DNA of 59,658 nt from Prosthecobacter debontii (lineage in GTDB: Bacteria > Verrucomicrobiota > Verrucomicrobiia > Chthoniobacterales > Chthoniobacteraceae). The stretch spans positions 1-59,658 of the forward strand of contig CAMDQC010000011.1 of assembly GCA_945905735.1 (NCBI GenBank), in the 5' to 3' direction. This document shows, in pieces, positions 28,988 to 55,275 of this stretch. The stretch's first letter is position 1. The number at the start of each line of letters is the position of its first letter. The notes below the pieces were generated by a model. It saw nothing but the letters and a program-made list of their open reading frames with translations. It was not told where the DNA came from and ran no database searches. Both the position numbers and the translations under genes were made by a program.

Positions 28988-29764
28988 ATGCGCGTCACAA
29001 TCGTCCAGCTCGACTCGGTGTGGGAAAACAAACCGGCCAACTTTGCCAAAGTGCGCGCTCTATTAAAGAGCACGCCGCCCGCTGCCGGTGGGCTCGTCGT
29101 TCTCCCGGAGATGTTCGCCACGGGCTTCAGCCTCGATCTTTCCGCGACGCTCCGCACCGGCACGGAGACGGAGGCGGCGTTCTGCGCGGCGCTGGCGAAA
29201 GAGCACGGCTGCTGTGTCATCGGCGGCTGCATCGCTCCGGCTACCGACGGGCGCGCATACAATATCGCCGCCGCATTTTCGCCAGACGGTGAACTCGCGC
29301 GGTACGTGAAGCAGCGACCGTTCACCGGCGCGGGTGAGCACGAGGCGCACGTCGGGGGTAGCTCGCCCGTCGTCTTTGAATGGGGCGGGTTCACCGTCGC
29401 GCCGCTCGTTTGCTACGACCTTCGCTTCCCGGAGCTTTTTCGCGCTGGGTTGGGCTTAGGGGCGACGCTGTTCGTCGTCATCGCCGCATGGCCCGTGCGG
29501 CGGATCGAGCACTGGCTTACGCTCCTCCGCGCCCGCGCCATCGAAAACCAAGCCTACGTCATCGGCGTAAATCGCACCGGCAACGAACCGCGTTTCGCCT
29601 ACACCGGGCGCAGCATCATCGTGGACCCACACGGCACCGTGATCCTCGCTGCGGGCGAAAGCGAATGCGCCACCAGCGCCGAACTCGACCCCGCGCTGCC
29701 GGCGAACTGGCGAGCGGAATTCCCGGCTGTGCGAGATTGGGGGCGGAACGGCCCGGACGCGTGA
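28988..29764 (+). CDS. Carbon-nitrogen hydrolase (omega-amidase/nitrilase family)
   Basis: 258 residues from the ATG at 28988, where the first beta strand of the fold starts (MRVTIVQLDSVWENKPANF). The catalytic triad is visible: Glu41 in VVLPEMFATGF, Lys108 in YVKQRPF and Cys142 in PLVCYDLRFPELFR. Length and motifs (NRTGNEPRFAYTGRS, the RAIENQAYVIGVN strand) fit omega-amidase/YafV-type enzymes, which convert alpha-ketoglutaramate or alpha-ketosuccinamate to the diacid in the cytoplasm. It is divergent from the HD phosphodiesterase gene, with a spacer of about 100 bp. Exact substrate is inferred from family only. Confidence 0.9.
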   Translation: MRVTIVQLDSVWENKPANFAKVRALLKSTPPAAGGLVVLPEMFATGFSLDLSATLRTGTETEAAFCAALAKEHGCCVIGGCIAPATDGRAYNIAAAFSPDGELARYVKQRPFTGAGEHEAHVGGSSPVVFEWGGFTVAPLVCYDLRFPELFRAGLGLGATLFVVIAAWPVRRIEHWLTLLRARAIENQAYVIGVNRTGNEPRFAYTGRSIIVDPHGTVILAAGESECATSAELDPALPANWRAEFPAVRDWGRNGPDA

Positions 29765-31296: not shown

Positions 31297-31305
31297 AACG
31301 ACGAC

Positions 31306-35935: not shown

Positions 35936-36870
35936 CAGGCCAGAGCTTCCTTCACCGCCGCGAAGAGCAGCGGGATATTGAGTTCGTGGTGCCCCACAAG
36001 ATACACGCCCTTGCCGCCCATCGCCGTGGGTCGCCGCTGCACATTTTCGCTCGGGCGATAGTGCCGCACCATGTCGAACGTCCCCGTCGTGAACCGCTCC
36101 ACCTTATGCCCGAGATTCCGCGCAATCGTCAGCGCCTTCAAGAAAACCTCCGGCATAATGACCGCGCTCCCCACATTCAAAACAACGCCCCCTTCGAGTT
36201 GCGCACACACCGCCGCAAACGTCTGGAAGTCCCGGTAGCTCGCCTCCCCCAGCACATCCCCGCGCGTCGTCGGATGCTGGTGGATGATGTCCGTGCCGAT
36301 GGCGATATGCACCGTCACCGGCACCCCCAGCTCCGCACCCGTCGCCATGATGCTGAGCTGCCGATTTGGAAATGTGAGCGCCTTCTCCCCCAGCGCCCGC
36401 CCGGCCCCGAGCCCGCGCGCCACGCCATCCGCCAGCGCCGCATTCATCATCCGTCCCGTCTCATCCACCATCCCGAACGAGCCATCGTTCAGCCCCCGCT
36501 GCACGTCCTCGCTCGTCTCGCCATTATAGCACAGCTCGAAATCGTGAATTGCCCCCGCCCCATTAAACGCCACCGCGCTCACCAAGCCACACCGCATCGC
36601 ATCCACGATCAGCGGATTCAGCCCCACCTTGATCGCGTGCGCCCCCATCATCAGCAAAATCGGACGCCCATTCCGCACCGCCGCCGCCATCGCCGCGACC
36701 ACCAACTTCAAATCCTGCACCGCCAAAAAGTCTGGCAACGAATCCAAGAACGCCGCAAACGTCCCCCCCGGCACATGCGGGCGAGCAAACGCCTCGACCG
36801 CCACCTTATTCGCGCGGTCGGCGACGGGATACGTGCGGATTTTTGAAAAATCGAGAGATGGAAAATTCAT
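35935..36870 (-). CDS. Deoxyhypusine-synthase-like conserved protein, function unknown
   Basis: 311 residues. The sequence has a nucleotide-binding-like core: ILLMMGAHAIKVGLNPLIVD, AFNGAGAIHDFELCYNGETS, GSFGMVDETGRMMNA, and VTVHIAIGTDIIHQHP. From memory, proteins of this type are annotated as deoxyhypusine-synthase-like in PVC, Chlorobi and related genomes; bacteria lack eIF5A, so a hypusine role is unlikely. The dehydrogenase-like G-A-x-x-K and D-I-I-H-x-H-P motifs suggest a small-molecule NAD enzyme. It is the first gene of a two-gene unit with dusB and its 5' end faces the NRPS promoter region, 150 bp away. Confidence 0.7.
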   Translation of the reverse strand: MNFPSLDFSKIRTYPVADRANKVAVEAFARPHVPGGTFAAFLDSLPDFLAVQDLKLVVAAMAAAVRNGRPILLMMGAHAIKVGLNPLIVDAMRCGLVSAVAFNGAGAIHDFELCYNGETSEDVQRGLNDGSFGMVDETGRMMNAALADGVARGLGAGRALGEKALTFPNRQLSIMATGAELGVPVTVHIAIGTDIIHQHPTTRGDVLGEASYRDFQTFAAVCAQLEGGVVLNVGSAVIMPEVFLKALTIARNLGHKVERFTTGTFDMVRHYRPSENVQRRPTAMGGKGVYLVGHHELNIPLLFAAVKEALA

Positions 36871-37019: not shown

Positions 37020-40000
37020 ATGTCAGCCCAACTTTATCCGCTATCTCCTTTGCAGCAAGGGATGCTCTACCACGCCGTCGCCGAGCCGTGCAGCGGCGTC
37101 GATATTGAGCAATTAGTGCTCACGCTCCACGAGCCCGTGGACGCGGGGCGCTTGCTCGCGGCATGGCAGCGGGTGGTGGCGCGGCATGGGATTTTGCGTA
37201 CAGCCTTTGAGTGGCAGGGCGCGGAACCTTTGCAGCGGGTGCATCCGGCGGTGGCGCTAGTTTTGGAAAGCGGGGAGTGTTCGGATTTTGCGGCGTGGTT
37301 GCAGGTGGACCGGGAGCGCGGCTTTGCACTGGATCACGCGCCGCTGATGCGGCTGACGCTGTTCCGGATCGCCGATGCGCACTGGCGGCTGGTGTGGACT
37401 TTCCACCATGCGCTGCTGGATGGCCGGAGCTTTCCAATCGTGCTGGAGGAGGTGTTCGGGTTCTACGATGGCGCTGCCGAGGAGCCCGCGCTGCCGCGTC
37501 CGTATCGGGACTTTATCGTGTGGCAGGCGACGCAAGACCCAGCGCGCTCGGAGACTTTCTGGCGGGAGAAGTTGCGCGGCTTCCGTGCGACGACTCCGCT
37601 GCCCGTGGAGGGGCTGGAGGGCTGCTCCGCCACTCGCACGCAAGGCGACGCAGAGCTGCGACTGGATGCGGCGCTCACCGCGAAACTGGGCGATTTCGCG
37701 CGAGCAAACGACGTGACGCTGAACACGCTCGTGCAAGGTGCTTGGGCCATCTTGCTGGCACGTTACAGCGGCGAGGAAGACGTGTGCTTCGGCGCGACGC
37801 GGGCTTGCCGACACTCGACGATTGAGGGCGCGGAGTCGTGCGTGGGGCTCTTTATCAATACCGTGCCCGTGCGCACCACCGCTGCCGCCGAGACGCCCAT
37901 CGCGGAGCTGCTGAACGGTCTGCGCCAAGGCTGGCTCGATGTCCGCGCGCACGAACACACGCCGCTCTCGCGAGTGCAGGCGTGGAGTGATTTGCCGCCG
38001 GGACAGCCGCTCTTCCGCACGCTCGTTGTGTTTGAAAACTACGACCTGCCCGCTCAGTTCCGCGCTCGCGGCGGGGCGTGGGCGCAGCGGGAGCTACGGC
38101 TGCACGAGCAGACGAGTTTCCCCATTTGCCTAGCCGCTTACGCAGGCGAAGAACTGCGCTTCGTCGCAGAGTATGATCGTTCAAGACTCGATGCGGCGAC
38201 CATCCAGCGGATGCTCGGGCACCTCGCCAACATCCTGCGCGCGCTCCCAGAGAGCCGCACGGTGGGGGACATCGCGCTGGTTTCGAGTGCTGAGCGCGAG
38301 AGCCTCATCGCTCCGCGCAACACTCCGCCGCCGAGCGACTCCCGCGATGAACGCCCGCTTCACGCCCTTTTCTCCGAGCGCGCCGCGACTCAGCCGGATG
38401 CCGTCGCATTGATCCAAAACGATGAGTGTCTGACCTATCGCCAGCTCGACGACCGAGCGAACGCAGTCGCCGCGCATCTCGCAAGTGTCGGCGTGGGTGT
38501 GGGCGAAATCGTCGGTCTCTGTATGGAGCGTTGCCCGTCGCTTGTCGTCGCGCTGCTCGGCATCGTCAAAGTAGGTGCGGCGTATCTCCCCATTGATCTG
38601 GCGTATCCCGCCGAGCGTCTGGCCTTCATGCTCGCCGATGCGAAAGCGCCCGTGCTGCTCACGCAGCGCCACCTCGCAGACCGACTGCCCAGCGACCACG
38701 GAGCGCGGCTCGTCTTCGTGGAGGACATCGCGCTTTCCGCCGCTGCGCCCGCACGCGCAGGCACGCCGGAGCAACTCTGCTACGTGCTCTATACGAGCGG
38801 CTCTACGGGTAAACCCAAAGGCTGCTGCATCACCCACCGCAACATCGTGCGGCTATTTACCGCGACCGAGCCGTGGTTCCACTTCACTCGAAATGACGTG
38901 TGGACGCTCTTTCACAGCACGGCGTTCGACTTCTCCGTGTGGGAGCTGTGGGGCGCGCTGCTCTACGGTGGCACGCTGGTGGTAGTGCCGTTTGAGGTGA
39001 GCCGTTCGCCGGAGCAGTTTCACGAACTTCTCGTCCGCGAGGGCGTCACGATTTTGAACCAAACGCCGAGCGCCTTCCGCCAGCTCATCGCCGCCGACTC
39101 CGCATCGCCCCGCTCGCACGAGTTGGCGCTGCGCACCGTCGTGTTCGGCGGCGAAGCGCTGGAAATGCAGAGCCTCCGCCCGTGGTTCGAGCGCCACGGC
39201 GACACGAAGCCGCAACTCGTGAACATGTACGGAATCACGGAGACGACCGTGCATGTCACCTACCGCCCGCTCACCGCCAGCGACCTCACGCGCGGCAGCG
39301 TCATCGGCGAGCCGATCCCCGATCTCCAACTTTACATCCTCGACCCGCAGCTCCGCCCTGTGCCCATCAGCGTCCCCGGTGAACTCTTCGTAGGCGGCGC
39401 GGGCCTCGCGCGGGAATATCTCCACCGCCCCGAGCTGACCGCGCAACGCTTCATCCCGAGCCCATTTGCGCCGGGCGAAAAGCTCTACCGCACCGGCGAC
39501 CTCGCCCGCTGGCTGCCAAACCGCGACATCGAATATCTCGGGCGCATTGACCAGCAGGTGAAAATACGCGGCTTCCGAATCGAGCTCGGGGAAATCGAGA
39601 GCCACCTGCTCACTCACCCCGGCATCCGAGAAGCCGCCGTGCTCGTCCGCGACAAGCGCCTCATCGCATGGTTCGTCCCCACCGCCGCCGCGCCGGCCAC
39701 CGCTGAGCTGCGCGCACATTTGAAATCGTTCGTCCCCGACTACATGGTGCCCGCCGCATTCGTCGCGATGGAGCGGATGCCGCTGACGAATAACGGCAAG
39801 CTCGACCAGCGCGCATTGCCCAACCCCGCCGAAGAGCGCCCCGATGTCGCCGCGCGCTACGTCGCACCGCAGACGCCCGAACAGCACGCGCTCGCAGAAG
39901 TCTGGCAGCGTCTGCTGAAAATTGAGCGTGTCGGCATCCACGACAACTTCTTCGAGCTCGGGGGAGACAGCATCCTCAGTATCCTCGTCGTCACACAGGC

Positions 40001-43000
40001 TCGGCAACGCGGTATCGCAGTCACCCCGAAGCTCCTCTTCGATCACCCCACAATCGCCGAACTCGCCGCTCAAAAAGCTGCCGACCCGACACGCCTCGTC
40101 GAGCGTCCCGCGACGGGCGCAGTCCCGCTCACGCCCATCCAGCATTGGTTCTTCGCTCATCAGTTCGCCGACGCGCACCATTGGAATCAATCGTTCGCCT
40201 TCAGCCTGACGCGCCCCGTCGAGCGCGAGCGACTGCTCGCCGCAATAGGGAAAGTGCTGCAAGCACACCCGGTGTTCCGGCTGCGCTTCGATGGGAAAGG
40301 AGCACAGTTTTTCGGCCAAGTTCCCGCAGCCGAACTCTCGGAGCCCACCGCGCTGCAATCGTCCCTGCGACTCGACGGCCCGCTCATCCGCTTCGCACTT
40401 CTGGATGCGGAGACGCTGCTCATCGCCGCGCATCATCTCATCATAGACGGAGTCTCCTGGCGCATCCTGCTCGAAGACCTCGACCACGCACTGCGCGGCG
40501 TCGCGTTACCTTCGCCGACGACCGGCTTCCACACATGGGCCGATGCGTTGCCAAGCGCGCTGGCTGGAGCAGCGAACGAGCGAGCTTACTGGCTCGATGT
40601 GCTGAGTTCCGCAAACACGCCGCTGCCTGCCGACCACAGTCTCGGTGAAAACACGGAAGCCTCCGCCGAGACAATCGTCTGGCGCTTTTCTCCCGAGGAA
40701 ACGAACGCGCTGCTCCACAAGCAACCGCTCGGCGTGAGGACGCAAGAGGTTCTCCTCGCCGCGCTCGCCGAAGCCCTAGCGCACTGGACAGGGCGCGATG
40801 AACTCACCATTGAAACCGAGGGACACGGTCGTGAAGAAAGCGCGCTCAAAGACCTCGCGAAACTTGCGGGCACGCCGGACCTCTCCCGCACGATTGGCTG
40901 GTTCACGACGATCTTCCCGCTCCGTTTGCGACGCGCCAGCACGCCATCTGCGACGCTCGATTCCGTCGTTCGCTCGCTGCGCGACGTGCCGCATCACGGC
41001 TTCGGATATTCGCTCCTCCGCCAGCACGACGAGGCTCTGAATAGCCACGCCGACGTGCTCTTTAACTACCTCGGGCAATTCGACCAAACCGTCGCCGGGC
41101 TCGAACACTTCACGTTCTCCGCCGCACCGACAGGCCCGTGGCACGCCCCAGCCGCGCGGCGCACGCATGTCCTCGAACTCAACGCGCTCGTCATCAACGG
41201 CGCGCTGGAAGTCCGCTTCGCATTCAGCGCCAACCTCCACCAAGCCGCGACCATCGAGGCCGCAGCGCAACGCTTCATGGCAACCGTGCGCGAACTCTCT
41301 GCGCGGAAGTATCCGCTCGCTCGCCTGTCGGAAGAATCGCTTGCCGAACTCACCGCGAGCCAGCCGACGCTGGAGGACGTTTATCCGCTTTCGCCGATGC
41401 AGCGGCTGTTCCTCGCAGTCGAGGCAGCGCGCCCCGGCAGCGGCACCGACCAATGGCACTGCCGCTTAAACGGCCTGCTAGACCCAGACGCGCTCCGCTC
41501 CGCTTGGCAGCAAGTCGCCGCGCGCCATCCCGCGCTCCGCACCGGTTATCTGGCGGAGACTGCCGAGCCGCATCAATTCGTCCTCCGCGCCGCGCCGCCA
41601 CCGTGGCACTTCGAGGACATCTCGGCATCTACGAACGACGCACAGCGTACGCGCTTCGCGCAGTATTTGCAGACAGATGCCGCGCGCCCTTTCGACCTCG
41701 CGCAGCCGCCCCTCACTCGCCTCGCGCTCTTCCGTGTGAACGCGCAGGAGCACTGGTTCGTATGGACGCATCATCATCTCGAAATTGACGGTTGGTCGTG
41801 GCCGCTCGTCTTCCGCGAACTCTCGCTCGCGCTGAACCATCAGCTCGCCGAAGCCTCGCCAGCTCCGCCCTATCGCGACTTCATCGCGTGGCTGGCGATG
41901 CGCAACGCGAGCCGTTCCGAAGCGTTCTGGCGTTCGCAGCTCAGCGGCTTCCGCACGCCGACCCCGTTGCCCATCTCGCCTGCGCTTGCGCCGGAATGTG
42001 AGTGCTCGGAGACGTTCGATGCGGCGCAACTGAACTCCGCAGCGCGTCGCTTGCAGGTGACTGCAAACGTGATCGTCCAATGTGCATGGGCAGCGCTTCT
42101 GGCCCGCCACGGCGGAACTGGCGACATCGTTTTCGGCGCGGCATTTTCCGGTCGTCCGGCGGACCTCACTGGCTCGGATCGGATCGTTGGACACTTCGTG
42201 AACAACCTCCCTATCCGAGTCAAAGTCAGCGCGGAAACCACGTTGGCCACAGCGGCGGCGAGGCTGCACCAGAGCCTCTCGCGGGTTGCGGAACAGCAGG
42301 CCACGCCGCTCGCAGACATCCAGAGCTGGAGCGAGCTGCCGTGGCACGCGCGCCTTTTTGAAACGCTCGTCGTCTTTCAAAACTACGTCACCGATGGAGC
42401 GGCGCAATCGCTCGGCTCCGCCGCCATCGCAGACTTTCACGCGCCTGTGCGGACCAACTATCCGCTCACGCTCGTCGTCCAGCCGGGAAACGAACTTCGC
42501 ATCACGCTCGTAGCAAACGCGAACGTCGCCTCGCAGGAAGCGGTTCGGGCGCTGACGGGCCAACTTTGCGCGCTCGTCCAAGCCGCCATTGCCGCGCCGG
42601 ACCAAGCACTCGTAAGCATAGCCTCTTCGCTCGCCGAATTGCGAACCGCTCCAACCGCTCCGCTGGCGAGTGCTGGCCCGCAAGCGCCCGCTGCTTCGCA
42701 TCTCGAATCCCAAATCGCGAGCATCTGGGCCGAGGCATTTGGGCGCACGGTTTCCGTGACGGATAACTTCTTCGACCTCGGCGGGCATTCGCTGCTCATG
42801 CTCCGCGTCCACGCTCGACTCGTGTCGGTGCTTGGACGCGAGATACCTGTCGTGAAGCTCTTTCAGCATTCGACCATCAGCGCCCTAGCGCGCTTCCTCG
42901 GCGGCGAAACCAGCGCGCCAAACGTCGCGGGGGCAGCACAGGACCGCGCTGCAAAAGCCCGAGCCGCACTCGCGCGTCGCCCAGTCCCAAAGCGCACAAA

Positions 43001-43007
43001 TTTATGA
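37020..43007 (+). CDS. Nonribosomal peptide synthetase, C-A(Thr)-T-E-C-T
   Basis: About 1995 residues. C1 (about 1-425) has LYPLSPLQQGMLYHA and the active HHALLDG at 129-135, so it can acylate the first residue and may be a lipid-accepting starter. A1 (about 445-935) has YTSGSTGKPKG; its specificity residues, read by alignment to GrsA, are D-F-W-N-V-G-M-V-H-K, a threonine code. T1 (Ser984 in FFELGGDSIL) is followed by an E domain (about 1028-1435; HHLIIDGVSWRIL at 1138, RTIGWFTTIFPL, FNYLGQFD), which would invert Thr to D-allo-Thr. C2 (about 1448-1880) has intact HHLEIDG at 1585. T2 (Ser1924 in FFDLGGHSLL) has no A domain in front of it. The TGA overlaps the ATG of the next gene (ATGA). The empty C-T module must be loaded in trans or simply pass the chain. 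Confidence 0.94.
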   Translation: MSAQLYPLSPLQQGMLYHAVAEPCSGVDIEQLVLTLHEPVDAGRLLAAWQRVVARHGILRTAFEWQGAEPLQRVHPAVALVLESGECSDFAAWLQVDRERGFALDHAPLMRLTLFRIADAHWRLVWTFHHALLDGRSFPIVLEEVFGFYDGAAEEPALPRPYRDFIVWQATQDPARSETFWREKLRGFRATTPLPVEGLEGCSATRTQGDAELRLDAALTAKLGDFARANDVTLNTLVQGAWAILLARYSGEEDVCFGATRACRHSTIEGAESCVGLFINTVPVRTTAAAETPIAELLNGLRQGWLDVRAHEHTPLSRVQAWSDLPPGQPLFRTLVVFENYDLPAQFRARGGAWAQRELRLHEQTSFPICLAAYAGEELRFVAEYDRSRLDAATIQRMLGHLANILRALPESRTVGDIALVSSAERESLIAPRNTPPPSDSRDERPLHALFSERAATQPDAVALIQNDECLTYRQLDDRANAVAAHLASVGVGVGEIVGLCMERCPSLVVALLGIVKVGAAYLPIDLAYPAERLAFMLADAKAPVLLTQRHLADRLPSDHGARLVFVEDIALSAAAPARAGTPEQLCYVLYTSGSTGKPKGCCITHRNIVRLFTATEPWFHFTRNDVWTLFHSTAFDFSVWELWGALLYGGTLVVVPFEVSRSPEQFHELLVREGVTILNQTPSAFRQLIAADSASPRSHELALRTVVFGGEALEMQSLRPWFERHGDTKPQLVNMYGITETTVHVTYRPLTASDLTRGSVIGEPIPDLQLYILDPQLRPVPISVPGELFVGGAGLAREYLHRPELTAQRFIPSPFAPGEKLYRTGDLARWLPNRDIEYLGRIDQQVKIRGFRIELGEIESHLLTHPGIREAAVLVRDKRLIAWFVPTAAAPATAELRAHLKSFVPDYMVPAAFVAMERMPLTNNGKLDQRALPNPAEERPDVAARYVAPQTPEQHALAEVWQRLLKIERVGIHDNFFELGGDSILSILVVTQARQRGIAVTPKLLFDHPTIAELAAQKAADPTRLVERPATGAVPLTPIQHWFFAHQFADAHHWNQSFAFSLTRPVERERLLAAIGKVLQAHPVFRLRFDGKGAQFFGQVPAAELSEPTALQSSLRLDGPLIRFALLDAETLLIAAHHLIIDGVSWRILLEDLDHALRGVALPSPTTGFHTWADALPSALAGAANERAYWLDVLSSANTPLPADHSLGENTEASAETIVWRFSPEETNALLHKQPLGVRTQEVLLAALAEALAHWTGRDELTIETEGHGREESALKDLAKLAGTPDLSRTIGWFTTIFPLRLRRASTPSATLDSVVRSLRDVPHHGFGYSLLRQHDEALNSHADVLFNYLGQFDQTVAGLEHFTFSAAPTGPWHAPAARRTHVLELNALVINGALEVRFAFSANLHQAATIEAAAQRFMATVRELSARKYPLARLSEESLAELTASQPTLEDVYPLSPMQRLFLAVEAARPGSGTDQWHCRLNGLLDPDALRSAWQQVAARHPALRTGYLAETAEPHQFVLRAAPPPWHFEDISASTNDAQRTRFAQYLQTDAARPFDLAQPPLTRLALFRVNAQEHWFVWTHHHLEIDGWSWPLVFRELSLALNHQLAEASPAPPYRDFIAWLAMRNASRSEAFWRSQLSGFRTPTPLPISPALAPECECSETFDAAQLNSAARRLQVTANVIVQCAWAALLARHGGTGDIVFGAAFSGRPADLTGSDRIVGHFVNNLPIRVKVSAETTLATAAARLHQSLSRVAEQQATPLADIQSWSELPWHARLFETLVVFQNYVTDGAAQSLGSAAIADFHAPVRTNYPLTLVVQPGNELRITLVANANVASQEAVRALTGQLCALVQAAIAAPDQALVSIASSLAELRTAPTAPLASAGPQAPAASHLESQIASIWAEAFGRTVSVTDNFFDLGGHSLLMLRVHARLVSVLGREIPVVKLFQHSTISALARFLGGETSAPNVAGAAQDRAAKARAALARRPVPKRTNL

Positions 43008-46000
43008 GTAACTCCCATGATTCACTCGAAGGTATCGCAATCGTCGGCATGGCCGGGCGCTTCCCCGGCGCGCCGAGCGTCGCGGACTTTTGGAAGAACC
43101 TCATCGCAGGCGCAGAGACGATCTCCACGCTGACCGACGAACAACTGAGCGCGGCTGGGGTGAAGAAAGGAGATGCGTATGTTCCCCGTCGCGGGCTGTT
43201 GGAACGGCCCGAGTTTTTCGACGCCGCGTTTTTCGGCATCTCGCCGCGCGAGGCCGAGGCAATGGACCCGCAGCAGCGTATCTTTCTCGAAGAAGCATGG
43301 ACCGCTCTCGAAGACGCAGCCTGCGATTCCGCGCGCTACGCCGGAGCCATCGGCGTCTTTGCCGGGATGTCGAACAACACCTACTGGGCGAACAATGTGG
43401 TGCATCATCCAGAACTCATCGCGAGCGTCGGCTGGCTCACGGCGATGATGGGGAATGAGAAGGATTACCTCGCGACCCGGACCGCGTATAAATTGAACCT
43501 CCGTGGCCCCGCGATCAGCATCCACACGGCGTGCAGCACATCGCTCGTCGCGGTGTGTCAGGCTGTGCAAAGCCTACTCAGCTACGGCTGCGACATGGCT
43601 CTGGCGGGCGGAGTCTCCGCGACTTTCCCGCACGAGCGAGGATACGTCTATGATGAAGGCGGCATCCTCTCGCCCGATGGTCACTGTCGCGCATTCGACG
43701 TGAGTTCGGCAGGCACCGTGTTCAGCAATGGCTGCGGCGTCGTCGCGCTCAAACGCCTCGCCGATGCGGTGGCGGATGGCGACCGCATCTACGCGGTGAT
43801 CAAAGGTGCGGCCCTGAACAACGACGGTAGCAACAAAGTGAGCTTCACCGCGCCAAGCGTGGACGGGCACACCGAAGTCATCGCACTGGCGCAAGCTCTT
43901 GCTGGCGTCGAGCCGCGCAGCATTGGCTATGTCGAAGCGCACGGCACGGCGACGCCGCTCGGCGACCCCATAGAGATCGCCGGGCTCACCCAGGCATTCC
44001 GAGCCGGGACGGACGAGCGGGGCTTCTGCGCGCTGGGATCGGTGAAGAGCAATATCGGGCATCTCGATGCTGCGGCGGGCGTCGCCGGATTGATCAAAAC
44101 TGCGCTCGTCCTCCATCACGGGCGTATCCCTGCGAGCCTCCATTTCACGGCCCCCAATGCGAAACTCGACCTGCCCGACTCGCCGTTCTTCGTCGTGAAC
44201 GAAGCGCGGGATTGGCCAGCCAGCGCAGAGCCTCGGCGGGCGGCGGTGAGCAGCTTTGGCGTAGGTGGAACGAACGCGCACTGTGTGCTCGAAGACTTTG
44301 CCGCAGCTCCCGCGACGACGGAGGAGCCGACACCGCAAGTCCTTACACTTTCGGCCAAAACAGAAACGGCCTTAGTCACGATGGCGGAGAATCTCGCGCG
44401 GACTTTGGACGCGAATCCGCAACTCTCGTTCGGAGACATCGCACACACGCTTCACATCGGGCGGCACGATTTTGCCCACCGTCTCGCAGTCGCGGCGGCC
44501 CATCCCGCTGCGGCAGTAAACGCGCTTCGGGGCGTGGAGCGGCGGAGTTCCGTAAAAGGTCGTGCGTCGAGTTCACAGCCGCGCGTGGTTTTCATGTTCC
44601 CCGGTCAGGGCTCGCAATACGTGGGCATGGGCGCGCAGCTTGCGGCGACAGAGCCGGTCTTCCGCAAGGCGCTGCAACGATGTGCGGAGATTCTCCGTCC
44701 GCAGCTTGGCTGTGATCTTGTCGAGTTGCTGGGCGATACGACCGACGAAGCGCGCCTGCGTTTGCGAGAGACTCGCTTCACGCAGCCTGCGATTTTTTCC
44801 ATCAGCTACTCGCTGGCGGAACTGTGGCGTTCGTGGGGCGTTGAGCCTGCGCTGATGATCGGCCACAGCGTCGGCGAATATGTCGCAGCCACGCTCGCTG
44901 GAGTTTTCTCGCTGGAGGATGGGCTTTCGCTCGTCGCCGAGCGCGCGCGGCTGGTGCAGGCGCAGCCTTCGGGCTCGATGCTTGCGGTTCGGCTCCCGAG
45001 TGAGGAAGCCACTCGTTTTTGCAGCGCAGAAATTTCTCTCGCTGTGGTAAATGGGCCGTCGCTCTGTGTGCTCGCTGGGCCGAGTGAGGCCATCGCCGCC
45101 GTGGAGCAACAACTCGCTGCCGAGAATGTCGCGGCCAAGCGGCTGGAGACATCGCACGCTTTCCACTCTGCGATGATGGAGCCCGCTATCGCCCCGCTCC
45201 GTGCGGCTGCGCAGAAGGTTGCGCGCAATGCGCCGCGGACGCCGATCCTTTCTACGGTCACGGGCGATTGGCTCACTGCAGACGAGGCGACTGACCCAGA
45301 ATACTGGGCGCGACACGCACGGGCGACGGTGCAGTTTTCCCCGGCAATCGCGCGTCTGCTGGCGGAAGAAGATGTCGTCTTTCTCGAATGCGGCCCCGGC
45401 AACACGCTCACACAGCTCGGCAAACAGCACGCGAAATCGGACCGCGTTTTCGTCTCCACACTCCGCGATGGCGTGGCGGAACTCACCAGCGCGCATCTCG
45501 CGGCGGGGCAGCTCTGGACTAGCGGAGTGACCGTCGGTTGGCGGACGATGGACGGAGAACGTCAGCGTCGCAAAGTCTCACTGCCGACGTATCCCTTTGA
45601 GCGGCAGCGGTACTTTGCGGAAGCGCCAACGGAATGCACGGCAACGACGCAACCGCGCGTCGAGCCTGCACAAGTCGTAGAGGCCACGCTCGAAGCCGCA
45701 GCCACGACTCCAGCGGGACGCATGGGCGAAGTGATTGATGAGCTTCAACGGCTGTCCGGCCTCGACCTCAGCGGAGCAAGCCCGGACCTTTCGTTTACCG
45801 AGCTTGGCTTCGACTCGCTCTTCCTCACGCAAGTCGCCGTCGCTCTCTACAAGCGGTTCGGGGTGAAGATCACCTTCCGGCAGCTCTTGCAGGATTTGCC
45901 GAGCCCTGCCGCTGTTGCGGAGTTTCTCGACAAGCACGCGCCCGCTGCTGGGCCGTCCAAGAAGGTCGCCGCCGCTCCTGCCGCGCCGAGCAATGTGCCC

Positions 46001-49000
46001 ACGCCGCGCGCCCACGGGCCGTTCCGTGGGATTGACCGGACTTCGACGACGCTCTCGCCCGAGCAGGAAACGCACGTCGCCGACCTCATCGCCCGCTACA
46101 CGGCGAAGACGGCGTCCTCGAAGCGGGCCACCGCGCAACACCGCGCGCATCTCGCCGATCCTCGTGCGGTTGCTGGCTTCCGGCGCGAGTGGAAAGAGAT
46201 CGTCTATCCGCTCATCTGCGACCGCTCGGAGGGCGCAAAATTGTGGGATGCAGACGGCAACGAATACACGGACATCACGCTCGGCTTCGGCCAGATTCTT
46301 TTTGGGCACCGCCCTAAATGGCTCGTGGATGCGGTCGAGCGGCAGCTCAAGTCCGGCATCGAAATCGGGCCAACCTCGTCGCTCGCCGGTGCTTTGGCGG
46401 AGCGGCTTTCCCGCTACCTCGGGTTGGAGCGTGTGGCCTTTTGCAATACCGGCAGTGAAGCCGTGGCCGCAGCGTTGCGCGTGAGTCGCACGGTGTCTGG
46501 GCGCGAGCGAGTCGCGGTGTTTGGCGGAGCGTATCACGGCATTTTCGATGAGGTGCTCTTTCGTCCCGGACCTGCGCCGATTGCGCCGGGAATCCCGCAG
46601 AGTGCGGTGCAAAATCTCGTCGTTCTCGAATATGGGAGCGACGAGTCGCTCGTGTGGTTGCGGGAGAATGCGAGCGACCTCGCTGCAATTATCGTCGAGC
46701 CTGTGCAGAGCCGTCACCCAGCGCTCGCGCCGCGCGAGTTTCTCCACGAACTCCGCCGCATCGCCACTGCGGGCGGGGCGGCGTTGATCTTCGATGAGAT
46801 CGTCACCGGCTTCCGAGTCGCGCCCGGCGGCGCGCAGGAATACTTCGGCGTAAAGGCGGACCTAGGGACGTATGGCAAAGTCATCGGCGGCGGGATGCCC
46901 ATCGGCATCGTGGGCGGAAGCCGCGAATACATGGACGCGCTCGATGGCGGTGCATGGAACTACGGCGACGACTCTTTTCCGGAAATTGGCGCCACATTTT
47001 TCGCCGGGACGTTTGTCCGTCACCCGCTCGCGCTGGCAGCGGCGAGCGCAGTGCTCGATGCGCTGGAACGCAGTGGCCCAGAGCTTCAGCGAACGCTTGC
47101 CTCGCGTGCCGCGGGCTTGACGGTGAGGCTCAATGCGACGCTGGAAGCTCATGGGCTCGCGATGCGCTGGCAGAACTTTTCATCGCTCTATTATTTGCCG
47201 CTGCCGACGGAGTTGCGGTATGCGCCGCTCCTCTTCACCCACATGCGCCTGCGCGGGCTTCATGTGTGGGAGAATCGTCCGTGCTTCCTCTGCGCGGAGC
47301 ACACCGAGGCGGACCTAGATAAAATCGCGACCGTATTCGAAGAGAGCGTCGCGGAGATGGCGGCTGCCGGACTGCTCGGCGCGGTGACGCCTCAAGCGTC
47401 TTCTGAAACTTCTCCTTTGTCCGACGGGCAGCAGGAAATCTTTCTCGCTGCTCAACTCGGCGATGATGCGAACGCTGCGTTTAACGATTCGATCCGTCTT
47501 CGCATTCGCGGCGTTATCGAGCCGGAGAAACTGCGCGCTGCGCTTTGCGAGGTCGTCCAACGTCACGGCGCACTGCGCACGACGATTTCAGCGGATGGAA
47601 AAACTCAGCGAACCCACGCGGCACCTGACCCCGTCGAGCTTGCTGCCGTGCCCATCGCGGATGAAGCGGCGCTCTTGCGCGCAATCGCGGCGCAGGCGGA
47701 GAGGCCGTTTGCTTTGCAACACGGGCCGCTCTGGCGTGCGACGCTGTTTTCTTTGAGCGAGAGCGAGCACGAGCTGGTTTTCACGGCGCATCACATCGTC
47801 TGCGATGGATGGTCGTTCAGCACGGTCGCGAGCGAATTGTCGGCTCTCTATTCCGGCGCGACTGCGGCGTCGCTCCCGGCTCCAGAGAGCCTCGCTGCTT
47901 ACAACCACGAGCAGATCGGACGGCGGAAAACGGCGGACTTCTCCACGAGTGAAGCATGGTGGCTCCAGCAGTTCGCGACGGTGCCGCCTCTGCTCGATTT
48001 GCCAACGGACGCTCCACGCTCGGGACTGCGCACCTTCCGCTCCGCCACGCGAAGTGCGCTTCTGCCAGCGCCGACTTGCGACGCGCTGCGCAAGGCTGCG
48101 GCGGCGAATCGCTCGACGGTTTTTGCGTCCCTCTTCGCGACGTTTGCCACGTTGCTTGGGCGCCTCAGCGGGCAGTCCGAGCTGGTGGTAGGCATCGCAT
48201 CTGCCGGGCAGACCCGCGTGGATGGGCCGTTGATTGGACATTGTGTGAACTTCCTGCCGCTCTCCGTAAGGTTTGACCCGGAGGCATCGCTCACCACCGC
48301 GCTGCCTGCGCTCAACGCGCTCATCCTCGATGCGCAGGAGCACCAAGACCTCACGTTTGGCCGACTGTTGAAAAAGCTCAGCGTGCCTCGTGTCGCCGGG
48401 CGGATGCCGCTGGTGAGCGTGAGCTTCAATGTGGACCGCGCTCCGGGAGCGTTGCCGTTTGGCTCAGCGACGGCGGAGTATCTCCCGGCGGAAAAGTCGC
48501 GCTACCACCTCGAACTCAGTTTCAACCTCATCGAAGAAGCGGGCGGCTATCGGATTTTCTGCCACTTCAATCGCGAGCTATTTGGCGGCGAAACGATTGA
48601 GCGATGGCTGTCGCACTACGTCACCCTCTGCGAAGAAATCTCCGCACGACCCGATGCGCCACTCCGCGCACACTCGCTCCTCTCGCCCGCGGAACAGCGC
48701 GTTCTCCTAGAAGATATGAACCGGACCGCCCGCGACTATCCGCGTGCTGTCGGGCTCGATACACTCTTTGAAAAGCAGGCGGCTAAATCCCCCGGAGCGA
48801 TCGCCATCGTGGATGGCGAGCGCCGCTTCACCTACGCGCAGCTCAACGAACAATCGAACGCGCTCGCTGCCAGCCTCATCACTCGTGGTCTTGCCGCTGG
48901 CTCTTTCGTGGGGCTCGCGCTGGAGCGGTCCGCCGAGCTGATCGTGGCGACGCTGGCGATCATTAAAGCAGGGCTCGCATACGCACCGCTCGACCCATCG

Positions 49001-51244
49001 TGGCCTGCGGAGCGCCTGCGCTTCATGGCTGAGGATTTGTCGCTGCGGGTGATCATCGGCTCCGCCGAAATCGCGGGCATCGAACGAATGGCTGTGACGC
49101 TTCACGGGGATGGGAGCGCGGAGAATCCGAGCGTGCCGACCGATGGCGGGAGCACGGCCTACGTCATCTACACGTCTGGCTCCACTGGCACGCCGAAGGG
49201 AGTTGTCGTCCCGCACCGCGCGGTTTCGCGCCTTGTCTTGAATACGGATTACGCGGCGCTGACTGCGGACGATGCCGTCGGCCATGCGTCGAACCCCGCG
49301 TTCGATGCGGCTACGTTTGAAATATGGGGACCGCTCCTCAATGGCGGTCGCATCGTCGTTTTGCCGAAGACAACGATGCTCGATCCGGCACGCCTCGGGG
49401 CCGCGATCCGTGAGGACGGAATCACTGCGCTCTTCATCACCACGGCGTTGTTTAATCAGGTCGCGAACCACGCGGCATCAACGTTCCAGCTGCTCCGACA
49501 TTTGCTCTTCGGCGGAGATGCGGCCAATCCGCAGGCGGTCGGACGCATTTTTGGAAGTGGCGCGCCTACACGTCTGACGAACATCTACGGACCCACGGAG
49601 GTCACTACTTTTGCTGCGGCGCACCTTATTACCGAGCACCCGCACGGTGCTGCGATTCCTATCGGTCGTCCGATTGCGAATACCGAAGCCTACGTGCTCG
49701 ACGCCTACCAGCAGCTTGTCCCGCTCGGGGTCGCGGGCGAGCTTTTCCTTGGCGGCGACGGCCTTGCGCTCGGCTACCACAATCGGCCCGAGTTGTCGGC
49801 GGAGCGGTTTGTTCCACATCCCTTCAAGACGGGCGAGCGGCTCTATCGCACAGGAGACAGCGTGCGTTTGAGGGCGGATGGGGAAATCGAATTTCTTGGG
49901 CGGCTGGACAACCAGATCAAACTGCGCGGCTTCCGCGTGGAGCTTGGGGAGATCGAGGCGGAGCTGGCCAAGCATCCGCAAGTACGCGAGGTCGCAGTCA
50001 AAGTGTGCAGCCATGATGCAGGCGAGAAGTGGCTCGCAGCCTACGTCGTAGCGCGGGTCGGCGCACCGATGGACGAGACATCGCTGCGAACATTGCTCGC
50101 GCAAAGACTGCCGGACTACATGGTGCCGACGGTGTTTGTTTCGCTGGAGCGCCTCCCGCTCAACGCGAATGGGAAAGTGGACAGAGCGGCTCTGCCTGAG
50201 CCCGTCATCCGCTCGCAGGCCCCGGCCCCACAGTCTTCCACGGCGACGGCGGCTCGCGTCGCCGCGCTCATGGCGGCTTCACTTCGGCAGGCCGATGTCC
50301 CGATTGACGGCGACTTTTTCCGGCTCGGCGGACACTCGCTTCTCGCGATTGATTTGCTGGCGCGCTTGAAGGCGGAGTTCGGCGTTGAGCTTCCTGCGAG
50401 CCGGATTTTTGAAACCGCGACGCCCGCCGGGCTTGCGCAATTCATTGATGAACACCGGATTCAGGCACCTCCTGCGGACTCACGCTTCATCGTTCCCGTG
50501 CAGCGTGGGAATCCCGGCGTGCGCCCGCTTTTCCTCGTTGCAGGCGGCTGGGGTGGGGAGATTGAGTTTCTCGTCTATGGTCAACTCGCTCGCCATTTAG
50601 GTGAAGGTCAGCCGATCTTCGGGCTCAAGGCGCGTGGCGCAGGCACTGGCGAGGCACCGCATCGCACGGTGACGGAAATGGCTGCTGACTACCTACGCGA
50701 GATTCGGGCGATTCAGCCGCACGGCCCGTATCTCATCGCGGGCGAGTGCGTCGGTGGCATCTGCGCGCACGAGATCGCCTGTCAGCTCCGCAATGCGGGC
50801 GAGGAAGTCGGTCTGCTCCTGCTGCTCGACACCAGCACGCCCAACCCCGCAGAGCTTGCTGACTACCTCCGTGCCGAGGAGGAGAAACGGGCACTCGAAA
50901 CCAAATCCCACAGCCTTCTCGCTCGGGTGCGAAGCGGTATCTCCGCAGTCGTGAAGTCCGTGCTCGGCGCGCCTCAGACGCCAGCGCCAGTGCTCCATCC
51001 GCGCGGGCAGGCGGTGTACCCTGTCACGCTGATGAGCCATCAATTGCAGCCGTATTCTGGGCGCATCACGCTCTTCATTGATGCGGATGCGCACGCGGCC
51101 TATGACCGACTTGGCTGGGAAAAAATTTCCGGCGCGCAGCTCGATGTTCACGTCCTCCCTGGGACGCACATCACTTACATCCGCGACAACAATGTTACCG
51201 CTGCGGCGAAGCTACGCGAACTGTTGGATCGCGCTACTGCTTGA
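43004..51244 (+). CDS. Hybrid PKS-NRPS: KS-AT-ACP-AMT-C-A-T-TE
   Basis: 2746 residues. KS (about 5-430) has the full triad Cys177 (TACSTS), His313 (HGTATPLGDP), His353 (NIGHLDAAAG). AT (about 525-830) has Ser622 in GHSVGEY and HAFH at 718-721, the malonyl-CoA signature. ACP: Ser938 in LGFDSLF. Next is a class III PLP aminotransferase in cis (about 1025-1455; FCNTGSEAVAAALR, IFDEIVTGFR, Lys1292 in GTYGKVIGGGMPIG), the arrangement of mycosubtilin MycA and microcystin McyE. C (HHIVCDG at 1596), A (about 1915-2400; code read as D-A-F-F-L-G-I-T-F-K, nearest to Ile/Val), T (Ser2445 in LGGHSLLAI) and TE follow. The TE has GECVGG with Cys2582 in the nucleophile place, Asp2609 and His2722. No ketoreductase or dehydratase is present, so the keto group is left for the aminotransferase. 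The 3' end overlaps kdsB by 11 bp. Confidence 0.95.
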   Translation: MSNSHDSLEGIAIVGMAGRFPGAPSVADFWKNLIAGAETISTLTDEQLSAAGVKKGDAYVPRRGLLERPEFFDAAFFGISPREAEAMDPQQRIFLEEAWTALEDAACDSARYAGAIGVFAGMSNNTYWANNVVHHPELIASVGWLTAMMGNEKDYLATRTAYKLNLRGPAISIHTACSTSLVAVCQAVQSLLSYGCDMALAGGVSATFPHERGYVYDEGGILSPDGHCRAFDVSSAGTVFSNGCGVVALKRLADAVADGDRIYAVIKGAALNNDGSNKVSFTAPSVDGHTEVIALAQALAGVEPRSIGYVEAHGTATPLGDPIEIAGLTQAFRAGTDERGFCALGSVKSNIGHLDAAAGVAGLIKTALVLHHGRIPASLHFTAPNAKLDLPDSPFFVVNEARDWPASAEPRRAAVSSFGVGGTNAHCVLEDFAAAPATTEEPTPQVLTLSAKTETALVTMAENLARTLDANPQLSFGDIAHTLHIGRHDFAHRLAVAAAHPAAAVNALRGVERRSSVKGRASSSQPRVVFMFPGQGSQYVGMGAQLAATEPVFRKALQRCAEILRPQLGCDLVELLGDTTDEARLRLRETRFTQPAIFSISYSLAELWRSWGVEPALMIGHSVGEYVAATLAGVFSLEDGLSLVAERARLVQAQPSGSMLAVRLPSEEATRFCSAEISLAVVNGPSLCVLAGPSEAIAAVEQQLAAENVAAKRLETSHAFHSAMMEPAIAPLRAAAQKVARNAPRTPILSTVTGDWLTADEATDPEYWARHARATVQFSPAIARLLAEEDVVFLECGPGNTLTQLGKQHAKSDRVFVSTLRDGVAELTSAHLAAGQLWTSGVTVGWRTMDGERQRRKVSLPTYPFERQRYFAEAPTECTATTQPRVEPAQVVEATLEAAATTPAGRMGEVIDELQRLSGLDLSGASPDLSFTELGFDSLFLTQVAVALYKRFGVKITFRQLLQDLPSPAAVAEFLDKHAPAAGPSKKVAAAPAAPSNVPTPRAHGPFRGIDRTSTTLSPEQETHVADLIARYTAKTASSKRATAQHRAHLADPRAVAGFRREWKEIVYPLICDRSEGAKLWDADGNEYTDITLGFGQILFGHRPKWLVDAVERQLKSGIEIGPTSSLAGALAERLSRYLGLERVAFCNTGSEAVAAALRVSRTVSGRERVAVFGGAYHGIFDEVLFRPGPAPIAPGIPQSAVQNLVVLEYGSDESLVWLRENASDLAAIIVEPVQSRHPALAPREFLHELRRIATAGGAALIFDEIVTGFRVAPGGAQEYFGVKADLGTYGKVIGGGMPIGIVGGSREYMDALDGGAWNYGDDSFPEIGATFFAGTFVRHPLALAAASAVLDALERSGPELQRTLASRAAGLTVRLNATLEAHGLAMRWQNFSSLYYLPLPTELRYAPLLFTHMRLRGLHVWENRPCFLCAEHTEADLDKIATVFEESVAEMAAAGLLGAVTPQASSETSPLSDGQQEIFLAAQLGDDANAAFNDSIRLRIRGVIEPEKLRAALCEVVQRHGALRTTISADGKTQRTHAAPDPVELAAVPIADEAALLRAIAAQAERPFALQHGPLWRATLFSLSESEHELVFTAHHIVCDGWSFSTVASELSALYSGATAASLPAPESLAAYNHEQIGRRKTADFSTSEAWWLQQFATVPPLLDLPTDAPRSGLRTFRSATRSALLPAPTCDALRKAAAANRSTVFASLFATFATLLGRLSGQSELVVGIASAGQTRVDGPLIGHCVNFLPLSVRFDPEASLTTALPALNALILDAQEHQDLTFGRLLKKLSVPRVAGRMPLVSVSFNVDRAPGALPFGSATAEYLPAEKSRYHLELSFNLIEEAGGYRIFCHFNRELFGGETIERWLSHYVTLCEEISARPDAPLRAHSLLSPAEQRVLLEDMNRTARDYPRAVGLDTLFEKQAAKSPGAIAIVDGERRFTYAQLNEQSNALAASLITRGLAAGSFVGLALERSAELIVATLAIIKAGLAYAPLDPSWPAERLRFMAEDLSLRVIIGSAEIAGIERMAVTLHGDGSAENPSVPTDGGSTAYVIYTSGSTGTPKGVVVPHRAVSRLVLNTDYAALTADDAVGHASNPAFDAATFEIWGPLLNGGRIVVLPKTTMLDPARLGAAIREDGITALFITTALFNQVANHAASTFQLLRHLLFGGDAANPQAVGRIFGSGAPTRLTNIYGPTEVTTFAAAHLITEHPHGAAIPIGRPIANTEAYVLDAYQQLVPLGVAGELFLGGDGLALGYHNRPELSAERFVPHPFKTGERLYRTGDSVRLRADGEIEFLGRLDNQIKLRGFRVELGEIEAELAKHPQVREVAVKVCSHDAGEKWLAAYVVARVGAPMDETSLRTLLAQRLPDYMVPTVFVSLERLPLNANGKVDRAALPEPVIRSQAPAPQSSTATAARVAALMAASLRQADVPIDGDFFRLGGHSLLAIDLLARLKAEFGVELPASRIFETATPAGLAQFIDEHRIQAPPADSRFIVPVQRGNPGVRPLFLVAGGWGGEIEFLVYGQLARHLGEGQPIFGLKARGAGTGEAPHRTVTEMAADYLREIRAIQPHGPYLIAGECVGGICAHEIACQLRNAGEEVGLLLLLDTSTPNPAELADYLRAEEEKRALETKSHSLLARVRSGISAVVKSVLGAPQTPAPVLHPRGQAVYPVTLMSHQLQPYSGRITLFIDADAHAAYDRLGWEKISGAQLDVHVLPGTHITYIRDNNVTAAAKLRELLDRATA

Positions 51245-51983
51245 GTAGCTTTGCGAGCAACGGGGCGACGGCTTTGGCGTCGGCGGGCGTGTCCACTCCG
51301 AGGCTGATGTGCTTCACTTCAACGACGCGGATTTTCACGCCGTTTTCTAAAGCGCGGAGCTGCTCCAGCGACTCGGCCATTTCGAGAAGCGTCGGCTTCC
51401 ATTTCACGAACTGAAAGAGCAGCTCCATCGTGTAGCCGTAGATGCCTTGGTGGCGGAAAAAGCGGAGCCCGTGCGTCTCGTTGCGCACGTAGGGCAGTGG
51501 CGAGCGGCTGAAGTAGAGCGCGTCGCCTTTCCGATCCATGACGACTTTTACGGCGTTGGGATTTGCGATGTCGTCGTCGAGATCGAAGACGCTCGCGGAG
51601 GTGATCATCTTCACGCTGGAGTCCGCTGCGAGGGATCTCGCGAGCTTCGAGACGGTGCCGGGATCCACGAGCGGCTCATCGCCTTGGACGTTGATGACGT
51701 GGGTGAAGTCTTTGAGTTTTTTCTTCGCGACTTCGGCTACGCGGTCCGTGCCCGAGCGGCACTTATCGGACGTGAGGACGCACTCCGCGCCGAAGCGTGT
51801 GCAGGCGTCGGCGATGCGCTGATCCTCCGTGGCGACGATGACGCGCTCGATTCCCTTCGCTCGGCTGGCGCGCTCCCAGACGTGTTGGATCATGGGTTTC
51901 CCAGCGAGGATGAAGAGTGGCTTGCCGGGGAAGCGAGTGGCTGCGAAGCGGGCGGGAATGACGACGGCGATTTTAGCGGGCAT
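51234..51983 (-). CDS. kdsB: 3-deoxy-manno-octulosonate cytidylyltransferase
   Basis: 249 residues from the ATG at 51983, where the enzyme's first strand starts (MPAKIAVVIPARFAATRFPG); an upstream start would add 33 unrelated residues inside the next gene. Activates Kdo to CMP-Kdo in the cytoplasm for LPS inner-core synthesis. Family motifs: PARFAATRFPGKPL for CTP, TSDKCRSGTDRVAE, INVQGDEPLVDP (Mg binding), and YFSRSPLPYVR, HQGIYGY for Kdo. Its 3' end overlaps the converging synthase gene by 11 bp and its 5' end overlaps gmhB by 11 bp. Its presence is the best evidence that the organism makes LPS. Confidence 0.95.
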   Translation of the reverse strand: MPAKIAVVIPARFAATRFPGKPLFILAGKPMIQHVWERASRAKGIERVIVATEDQRIADACTRFGAECVLTSDKCRSGTDRVAEVAKKKLKDFTHVINVQGDEPLVDPGTVSKLARSLAADSSVKMITSASVFDLDDDIANPNAVKVVMDRKGDALYFSRSPLPYVRNETHGLRFFRHQGIYGYTMELLFQFVKWKPTLLEMAESLEQLRALENGVKIRVVEVKHISLGVDTPADAKAVAPLLAKLLKQ

Positions 51984-52503
51984 GGGTCTGGCGTATGATG
52001 AAATCGGCGGCGTCGGCAAGGTCTTTGGCGACAAACTCTGCGCCCGCTGGCGATGCGGTCGCGCCGATCCCGGTCTGGACAAGGATCGAGCGAGCGCCTG
52101 CTGCGACTCCGGCTTGGATGTCGCCTTCGCGATCCCCGATCATCCACGACGCTGCGAGGTCAATGGCGTGGTCACGTGCAGCCTCTCGCAGCATTCCCGG
52201 CTGCGGCTTGCGGCGGGACGATGGCATGTCGGCGTGGTCGGGGCAGAAGTAGGTCGCATCAATCAGCCCAGGGCCGAGCAATGCTTCGAGGCGCGCGGCG
52301 ACTTTATGATAGTCGGCCTCAGTGAATTTTCCCCGCCCGATGCCGCTTTGATTCGTGACCACGATCAGCCGGTAGCCCGCCGCTTTTAATCGCGAGAGCG
52401 TCGCTGGCACGCCGGGATAGACGACGACGCCCGCCGGGTCGCCGAGGTAGCCTGCGTCGTGCATGAGCGTGCCGTCGCGGTCGAGGAAGACTGCGGGCGT
52501 CAT
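51973..52503 (-). CDS. gmhB: D-glycero-beta-D-manno-heptose-1,7-bisphosphate 7-phosphatase (HAD family)
   Basis: 176 residues from the ATG at 52503, which places the HAD motif I near the N-terminus (AVFLDRDGTLMHD: nucleophile and acid Asp pair). Motif II VVTNQSGIGRGKF, the Cys/His zinc-knuckle-like YFCPDHADMPSSRRKPQPG (with the GmhB R-K-P motif) and motif III/IV MIGDREGDIQAG are all present. Removes the 7-phosphate of heptose bisphosphate on the way to ADP-heptose for the LPS core; a related histidinol-phosphate phosphatase role cannot be excluded. It overlaps kdsB and is 2 bp from the preceding glucosidase gene, so the three form one operon. Confidence 0.92.
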   Translation of the reverse strand: MTPAVFLDRDGTLMHDAGYLGDPAGVVVYPGVPATLSRLKAAGYRLIVVTNQSGIGRGKFTEADYHKVAARLEALLGPGLIDATYFCPDHADMPSSRRKPQPGMLREAARDHAIDLAASWMIGDREGDIQAGVAAGARSILVQTGIGATASPAGAEFVAKDLADAADFIIRQTHAR

Positions 52504-55190: not shown

Positions 55191-55275
55191 GGGCGCAGCG
55201 TAAACGGACACATGGCCGAGAAGCACGGACAAATTGATGGGCTCGCAAATTTTTGCCCGCTACTGTGTTCCAACG

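Follow-up and report, generated by a model that had tools for sequence, protein, structure and literature searches.

A recurrent two-gene NRPS-PKS line with an A-less C-T module, predicted to build a threonine-derived beta-amino peptide

It was found that two overlapping genes encode an NRPS-PKS assembly line (C-A-T-E-C-T, then KS-AT-ACP-AMT-C-A-T-TE) whose layout recurs in at least seven genomes of its order. Purifying selection acts on every domain, including a condensation-carrier module (C2-T2) that has no adenylation domain of its own. One adenylation domain (A1) may load threonine onto both carriers of the first protein (T1 and T2), and the line may then extend with malonyl, aminate the beta position and end with Ile or Val; this sequence-based reading is tentative, and I hold it with slightly less than even confidence. 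The window, that is, the whole stretch of 59,658 nucleotides that was analysed, is contig C11 of an assembly of 5.19 Mb in 258 contigs (93.5% complete; G000 below). The features are collected in Table 1.

Table 1. Features of the gene pair and its neighbours (positions in the window)
Feature	Position	Strand	Basis
Glycosyl transferase family 4 + O-antigen ligase, upstream of the pair	29935-33789		
Dihydrouridine synthase	34958-35935	-	
311-aa protein, no Pfam match	35935-36870	-	
ORF1, NRPS C-A-T-E-C-T, 1995 aa	37020..43007	+	ORF calls, Pfam, dN/dS
C1, N-terminal condensation domain, DCL-like	37029..38306	+	
A1, code DFWNVGMVHK (taken to be Thr)	38370..39809	+	
T1, LGGDS carrier preceding E	39879..40079	+	
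E, epimerization domain	40116..41342	+	
C2, DCL-like condensation domain, A-less module, HHxxxDG intact	41373..42617	+	
T2, carrier in A-less module, LGGHS intact	42720..42944	+	
ORF2, hybrid KS-AT-ACP-AMT-C-A-T-TE, 2746 aa	43004..51244	+	ORF calls, Pfam
KS	43028..44323	+	
AT, HAFH (malonyl type by the general rule)	44579..45538	+	
ACP, borders approximate	45641..46063	+	
AMT, class-III aminotransferase domain, MycA-like	46124..47353	+	
C3, LCL-like condensation domain	47390..48712	+	
A2, code DAFFLGITFK (taken to be Ile/Val)	48764..50203	+	
T3	50249..50458	+	
TE, type I, Cys nucleophile (GECVG)	50504..51223	+	
Cytidylyltransferase	51234-52082	-	
Glycoside hydrolase	52506-55232	-	
Alanyl-tRNA-synthetase-type protein	56440-59448	-	

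The borders and the domain string given by the first-pass annotation were both borne out by ORF calls, Pfam and motifs. The ORF1 stop codon (TGA, 43007) overlaps with the ORF2 start codon (ATG, 43004), which is the ATGA coupling that had been described. The open frame of ORF1 reaches back to 36843. Since the 59 codons 5′ of the ATG at 37020 are near-neutral between G000 and G034 (dN/dS 0.83; the six domains of ORF1 are at 0.03-0.18), this ATG is favoured as the start. Pfam places three Condensation-family, one AMP-binding and two PP-binding stretches on ORF1, the second module of which lacks an A domain, and KS, AT, Aminotran_3, Condensation, AMP-binding, two PP-binding and Thioesterase on ORF2. 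I take the middle Condensation-family domain of ORF1 to be an E domain from its LTPIQHWF start, and its position directly after the LGGDS carrier gives the same assignment. A motif scan found HHxxxDG in C1, E, C2 and C3, GGxS in T1-T3, GFDSL in the ACP, ACSTS in the KS, GHSVGE and HAFH in the AT, and YGKVIGGG in the AMT. Thus, the core residues, which had been called intact, are present in every domain type scanned, the TE nucleophile being a Cys. Between G000 and G034, dN/dS is 0.09 for C1, 0.07 for A1, 0.03 for T1, 0.17 for E, 0.18 for C2 and 0.13 for T2; in ORF2, it is 0.04 for KS, 0.11 for AT, 0.19 for ACP, 0.03 for AMT, 0.14 for C3, 0.14 for A2, 0.10 for T3 and 0.09 for TE. A tRNA-Ser called by ARAGORN at 47724-47815 (+) falls within ORF2 and is probably spurious.

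The first-pass annotation knew of no described pathway with exactly this domain order. I searched ORF2 in 213 genomes of the order, scoring two candidates per genome and annotating loci for part of the genomes, so that the counts are lower bounds. The two-gene layout was found in at least seven genomes, namely six of the ten in the genus (G000, G034, G027, G031, G032 and G035) and G020 of another genus. The ORF2 of G034 is 93% identical to that of the window. Other members of the order share the KS-AT-ACP-AMT core but have different loading modules. In a scan of named genomes by AMT alignment, 80 of 567 confirmed loci were kept, and seven of these 80 have the layout: L071 (= G032), L072 (= G031), L081, L147, L106, L078 and L082. 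It is divided over more genes in L078 (G213) and L082, the start of the cluster lies on a separate contig in L106, and L122 is a piece of G020. As given, the MAG labels are Verrucomicrobiales for L081 and L106, Nitrospira for L147, Pseudomonadota for L078 and Acidobacteriaceae for L082. The order is therefore recurrent, and a cluster unique to the window genome was rejected. The domain profiles for the relatives were built from the window cluster and the relatives themselves, and would pass over KR, MT and other types; G020 runs into contig edges, so that its C1 is a fragment and its TE lies outside, and G216 has its start on another contig. A described product for this domain order was not found in the literature searched. 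As a separate observation, G019, G024, G071 and G073 (L055, L056, L061 and L064) have an A-T or C-A-T loader before KS-AT-ACP-AMT, with a code that begins DVQF and presumably resembles Pro codes. Their sequences suggest other aminoacyl-primed beta-amino products.

What would the two A domains select? Alignment reproduced the reported codes, DFWNVGMVHK for A1 and DAFFLGITFK for A2 (the first nine letters come from the alignment, and the final K was appended). I take them to mean Thr and Ile/Val, respectively. The A1 code is DFWN[V/I]GMVHK in eight of the 12 ORF1s with the layout (G000, G034, G031, G035, G020, G213, G214 and G216), in agreement with the Thr-type A1 proposed earlier. It is one letter off in G027 (DFWNVGRVHK) and G215 (DFWSIGMVHK), and the readable part of the partial code in the frame-split ORF1 of G032 agrees with it. 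G217 has DVWHMSLVDK, presumably a Ser-type code, all other A1 codes being taken as Thr. The A2 codes are varied: DAFFLGITFK in G000, G027 and G032, DAFFLGATFK in G034, DAWLLGAVIK in G031 and DAWFIGGTFK in G035, all of the same genus, then DFWNIGMVHK in G020 and G216, DALWLGGTFK in G214, DILQLGVVWK in G215, DLFNNALTYK in G217 and DMLQWGFVYK in G213. The variation of A2 within the genus suggests that the species probably do not all incorporate the same last residue. Together with the alike A1 codes, it points to a core built on a conserved hydroxy amino acid, followed by a last residue that varies.

A1 and A2 are the only AMP-binding matches on the window contig. The genome has six others, including three weaker ones on C93, C131 and C127. 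The other three of the six were compared with models: a DltA (above the NF003417 cut-off, below that of TIGR01734), an acetate-CoA ligase (above the model cut-off) and a protein of the acyl-ACP/phospholipid acyltransferase type (below cut-off). None of the three is NRPS-like except DltA. Since these are the alternatives among the three of six compared, A1 or A2 is the likeliest loader of T2. A trans-acting A domain elsewhere in the genome may exist, as the C93, C131 and C127 matches and the 93.5% completeness of the assembly leave room for one. A-less modules are known from syringomycin, albicidin, ramoplanin and enduracidin (PMC8949500, section 4.1), and for the thalassospiramides, the accessible part of PMC5577590 proposes that a carrier is loaded by an A domain from another place in the pathway. 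The part of PMC11355689 consulted holds nothing on A-less modules.

Does the A-less module condense, or does it only pass the chain on? Among PDB sequences, the best scores of C2 were 245 bits with McyB, 234 with BacC, 214 with PvdL, 195 with TycB1 and 187 with SrfA-C, all of which I take to be DCL domains. It lies directly after E, has a DCL-like sequence and has HHxxxDG in the window; it thus appears DCL-like, as expected downstream of an E domain. C3 is LCL-like (Txo2 184, Txo1 169 and TycC 148 bits). Because dN/dS is low for C2 and T2 between G000 and G034, the module is maintained; between G031 and G035 the values are 0.20 and 0.17, the other ORF1 domains being at 0.11-0.22. The main rival reading is that C2-T2 adds no residue and serves as a relay or docking module between the NRPS and the PKS, with T1 handing the chain either to T2 or directly to the KS. 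This is unlikely, though not strongly so; the product would be X-D-allo-Thr-(C2 unit, beta-amine)-Ile/Val, which has the backbone of the first-pass annotation. Such a relay would agree with the finding that none of the 12 ORF1s compared has an A domain in its C2-T2 linker (35-64 residues). It would also agree with G020, G214, G216 and G217, where PD or PA replaces HH and the T2 serine is kept, as it is in all 12 aligned ORF1s including the window (LGAQS in G214, IGGHS in G032). The other C motifs looked at are retained in these four, and their C2 domains cluster in the C2 tree (96/94), the source records being labelled with two phyla. On the other hand, HHxxxDG is kept and under purifying selection in eight of the 12 C2 domains, the window among them (12 of 12 for E), and the E-domain tree, which is poorly resolved, does not group the four. 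In addition, the accessible part of PMC11546977 reports that mutation of the second His of a C domain does not always abolish activity, so a C domain without it may still work. Thus, a C2 without HH either still condenses or belongs to a relay module. It is rather improbable that this conserved module, where the NRPS meets the PKS, is the NRPS counterpart of the condensation-dead KS modules of trans-AT PKSs, a non-elongating relay that hands the D-aminoacyl chain to the KS with no residue added. Such a role would explain how one group could do without the histidines when every member compared has kept the carrier serine. For the window, I prefer condensation onto a second Thr, which A1 would charge, because HH is intact and the other AMP-binding genes compared (three of six) are a DltA, an acetate-CoA ligase and an acyltransferase/ligase type. 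The four relatives in which both histidines of C2 are lost count against the proposed line, as condensation may be absent there.

The donor of C1 is the other point on which readings differ. ORF1 begins with C1 wherever the start was read, and HHxxxDG is present in 11 of 11 relatives with the stretch covered (the G020 fragment ends short of the motif). Among PDB sequences, C1 scored 296 bits with McyB, 284 with PvdL, 213 with BacC, 196 with TycB1 and 174 with SrfA-C, which I take to be domains with D-configured donors (DCL). Lower were TycC with 131, presumably an LCL domain, and 7c1k/7c1h with 49, presumably the starter domain RzmA-Cs; the C1 of CDA synthetase was absent from the matches at 1e-5. 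C1 is nearer DCL than starter or LCL domains, with PDB chains as the only reference and with subtype labels from general knowledge and the accessible part of PMC1894796, where starter C domains group with LCL and not with DCL (Rausch et al.). As a DCL domain, C1 has no preceding donor module with an E domain, being the first domain of the line in an assembly with no other Condensation-family match. In G000, G027, G031 and G035, the assembly has just four Condensation matches, all of them in the cluster (G032 and G034 have one additional match each), so no other NRPS with a condensation domain can feed C1, and a donor NRPS elsewhere in the genome was rejected. A DCL-like C1 at the very start, without another condensing NRPS in the genome, is an unexplained feature. 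An N-terminal acyl group had been proposed, which does not sit well with a C1 that is DCL-like and unlike the solved lipid starter domains. That C1 is a functional starter domain which acylates Thr, with a fatty acid or another acyl donor, is possible but on the doubtful side. Its first position, its retained motif and the lack of a feeding NRPS in those four genomes favour a lipopeptide, but the bit scores and the grouping of starter domains oppose it; moreover, A1 and A2 are the only AMP-binding matches on the contig, so no acyl-activating gene is adjacent. It is quite improbable that C1 and E work iteratively, D-Thr on T1 of one protomer being the donor for C1 of another to give oligo-Thr. 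This would suit a DCL-like C1, the ORF1 location of the only E-type domain of G000 and the failure to find another donor line, and single-module iteration is proposed for solanimycin in the accessible part of PMC10204066. A decayed or silent cluster is very hard to credit. ORF1 is frame-split in G027 and G032, and ORF2 in G035, where assembly error and decay are both possible, but neither ORF is interrupted in G000, G034 or G031, and dN/dS is 0.03-0.19 in every domain between G000 and G034.

In the AT, HAFH is present as had been noted, and by the general rule it means malonyl selection. The closest PDB match of the AMT is that of mycosubtilin MycA (2.6e-118), with the PLP lysine kept, which supports the beta-amination that had been put forward. 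According to the accessible part of PMC3870968, the MycA AMT moves an amine from Gln to a beta-ketothioester. The TE nucleophile lies in GECVG and is Cys in eight members of the layout (G000, G034, G027, G031, G032, G035, G215 and G217) and Ser in G214 and G216; the TE is outside the stretch read in G020, and G213 matches the layout as far as its last T, with no TE found in the stretch read, which also counts against the proposed line. Other relatives in the order have TEs with GGYCNG or GGFCIG. As members of the layout use either nucleophile, a Cys here is no guide to a particular ring. The TEs of ObiF1 and SulM share the Cys nucleophile and GxCxG with the window TE, as far as the accessible parts of PMC6668435 and PMC11298585 show. 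They differ in that the window Asp (LLLLDT) aligns with the AB3403 Asp, the usual position, and not with position II of ObiF/SulM (a reading of the alignment), and in that a predicted structure of the window TE (mean pLDDT 85) is closest in fold to ordinary type I TEs, namely 7crn, EntF, Pks13 and AB3403. Thus, the Cys TE was rejected as a mark of a beta-lactone or beta-lactam. 7crn is titled bifunctional, epimerising and cyclising.

In the proposed line, A1 would charge Thr onto T1, C1 would link a donor X to it, and E would convert the T1-bound Thr to D-allo-Thr. The A-less T2 would receive a second Thr from A1, and the DCL-type C2 would join D-allo-Thr to it. The KS would then take the chain off T2 and add one malonyl unit, and the AMT would replace the beta-keto group of the thioester by an amine, so that a 3,4-diamino-5-hydroxyhexanoyl unit derived from Thr results. 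C3 would couple this unit to Ile/Val on A2-T3, and the Cys-type TE would free a small peptide, linear or cyclised. The Thr-beta-amine core would stay constant, the last residue changing between species. The first-pass annotation had proposed acyl-D-allo-Thr-(C2 extension, beta-amine)-Ile/Val. The Thr code of A1 and the MycA-like AMT support it in part; its acyl group is not supported so far, it passes over the C-T module in silence, and it stands as one among a few products that the line may make. The core chemistry appears to be of the known mycosubtilin/microcystin kind, while N-acylation and the exact product remain predicted.

The closest described systems are mycosubtilin MycA, iturin ItuA and microcystin McyE, where KS-AT-ACP is likewise followed by a cis class-III aminotransferase and a C domain. 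The starter units of those lines are fatty or aromatic acyl groups, and McyE includes a C-methyltransferase. In contrast, the KS of the window line is preceded by an E-containing NRPS module and the A-less C-T, Pfam shows no methyltransferase in either ORF, and the line ends after one more amino acid. An acyl- or aryl-activating starter unit is in neither ORF, A1 and A2 being the only AMP-binding matches on the contig; therefore, I class the pair as a variant within this beta-aminating PKS-NRPS kind and not as a MycA/McyE line proper. To my knowledge, few products of Verrucomicrobiota are characterised, and the product may be new though the type of machine is known. Among the similar cores listed in the accessible part of PMC3870968, Salinisphaera F7QBN5 (C-A-CP-KS-AT-CP-PLP1-C-HxxPF-A-CP) shares the succession of amino acid, malonyl extension, aminotransferase and second amino acid, but its listed string has no E and no A-less C-T, and its product is a prediction there. 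The A-less modules of syringomycin, ramoplanin and enduracidin are similar in that a C-T is charged from another A domain, with Thr in syringomycin, but they use a stand-alone A-T protein (PMC8949500), none of which was found among the genes compared (three of six AMP-binding matches). The thalassospiramide pathway is likewise a hybrid line with proposed carrier loading by an A domain located elsewhere (PMC5577590, accessible part). It differs in module order and in its statine-type units, which are not beta-amines. Cyanobacterial beta-amino units come with keto-acid or CoA-ligase starters in the accessible part of a preprint (PMC13252402). The present pair points to a compact, recurrent family in MAGs labelled with four phyla, the predicted products of which are beta,gamma-diamino (aminostatine-like) peptides derived from Thr. 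As a two-protein system, it is a small setting in which to study the charging of a carrier that lacks an A domain of its own, and the natural C2 versions with and without HH are ready test pairs for a condensation domain as a pure relay. The statine-type units of thalassospiramide, for their part, are ketoreduced.

A Pfam scan of 22 ORFs of the window, one for each stretch, showed no transporter or PPTase and nothing that looks like a regulator of the pair, as had been claimed, and the scanned neighbours look like housekeeping genes. A promoter and terminator scan found nothing. The PPTase expected elsewhere has candidates in two PPTase-family genes, on C36 and C29. Of the five genus relatives compared, only G034 has the whole neighbourhood in common. 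In G027, G031, G032 and G035, both direct flanking genes are on other contigs than the cluster; thus, its position differs between species. G031 and G035 keep the glycosyl transferase 4 and O-antigen ligase near the cluster on the opposite strand; these two were considered as cluster members and taken as chromosomal neighbours.

A nitrilase-family amidase gene (28988-29764, +) lies about 7 kb upstream of the pair and is YafV-like (PRK10438, under cut-off). Relatives are ATGA-coupled directly before ORF1 in G214 (L161:808-1602, -) and adjacent in G216 (L168:2148-2951, -). The amidase could hydrolyse the ketoglutaramate left by a Gln-using AMT. It occurs in six of the ten genus genomes and is on another contig than the cluster in G027, and was set aside as a lead, not a firm cluster member. 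A degenerate ORF2 paralogue lies on contig C29 of G000 (L067:6736-10698, +), open and constrained in G000 and G034 (dN/dS 0.21). Its KS has the Cys and neither His motif, its AT has GHGSGE and RAFQ, its AMT remnants lack the PLP lysine, its TE is kept, and it has no ACP, C, A or T. No second copy was found in the eight other genus genomes (last 532 aa as query, E 1e-10). In both G000 and G034, a HetI/Sfp-like PPTase gene (L067:10695-11273, +), nearest HetI and below that model's cut-off, is ATGA-coupled to the paralogue. Near ORF1, Cupin_8/JmjC-like hydroxylase genes, 40% identical, were found in G215 (L158:11644-12531, Acidobacteriaceae) and G217 (L162:7212-8177, Nitrospira).
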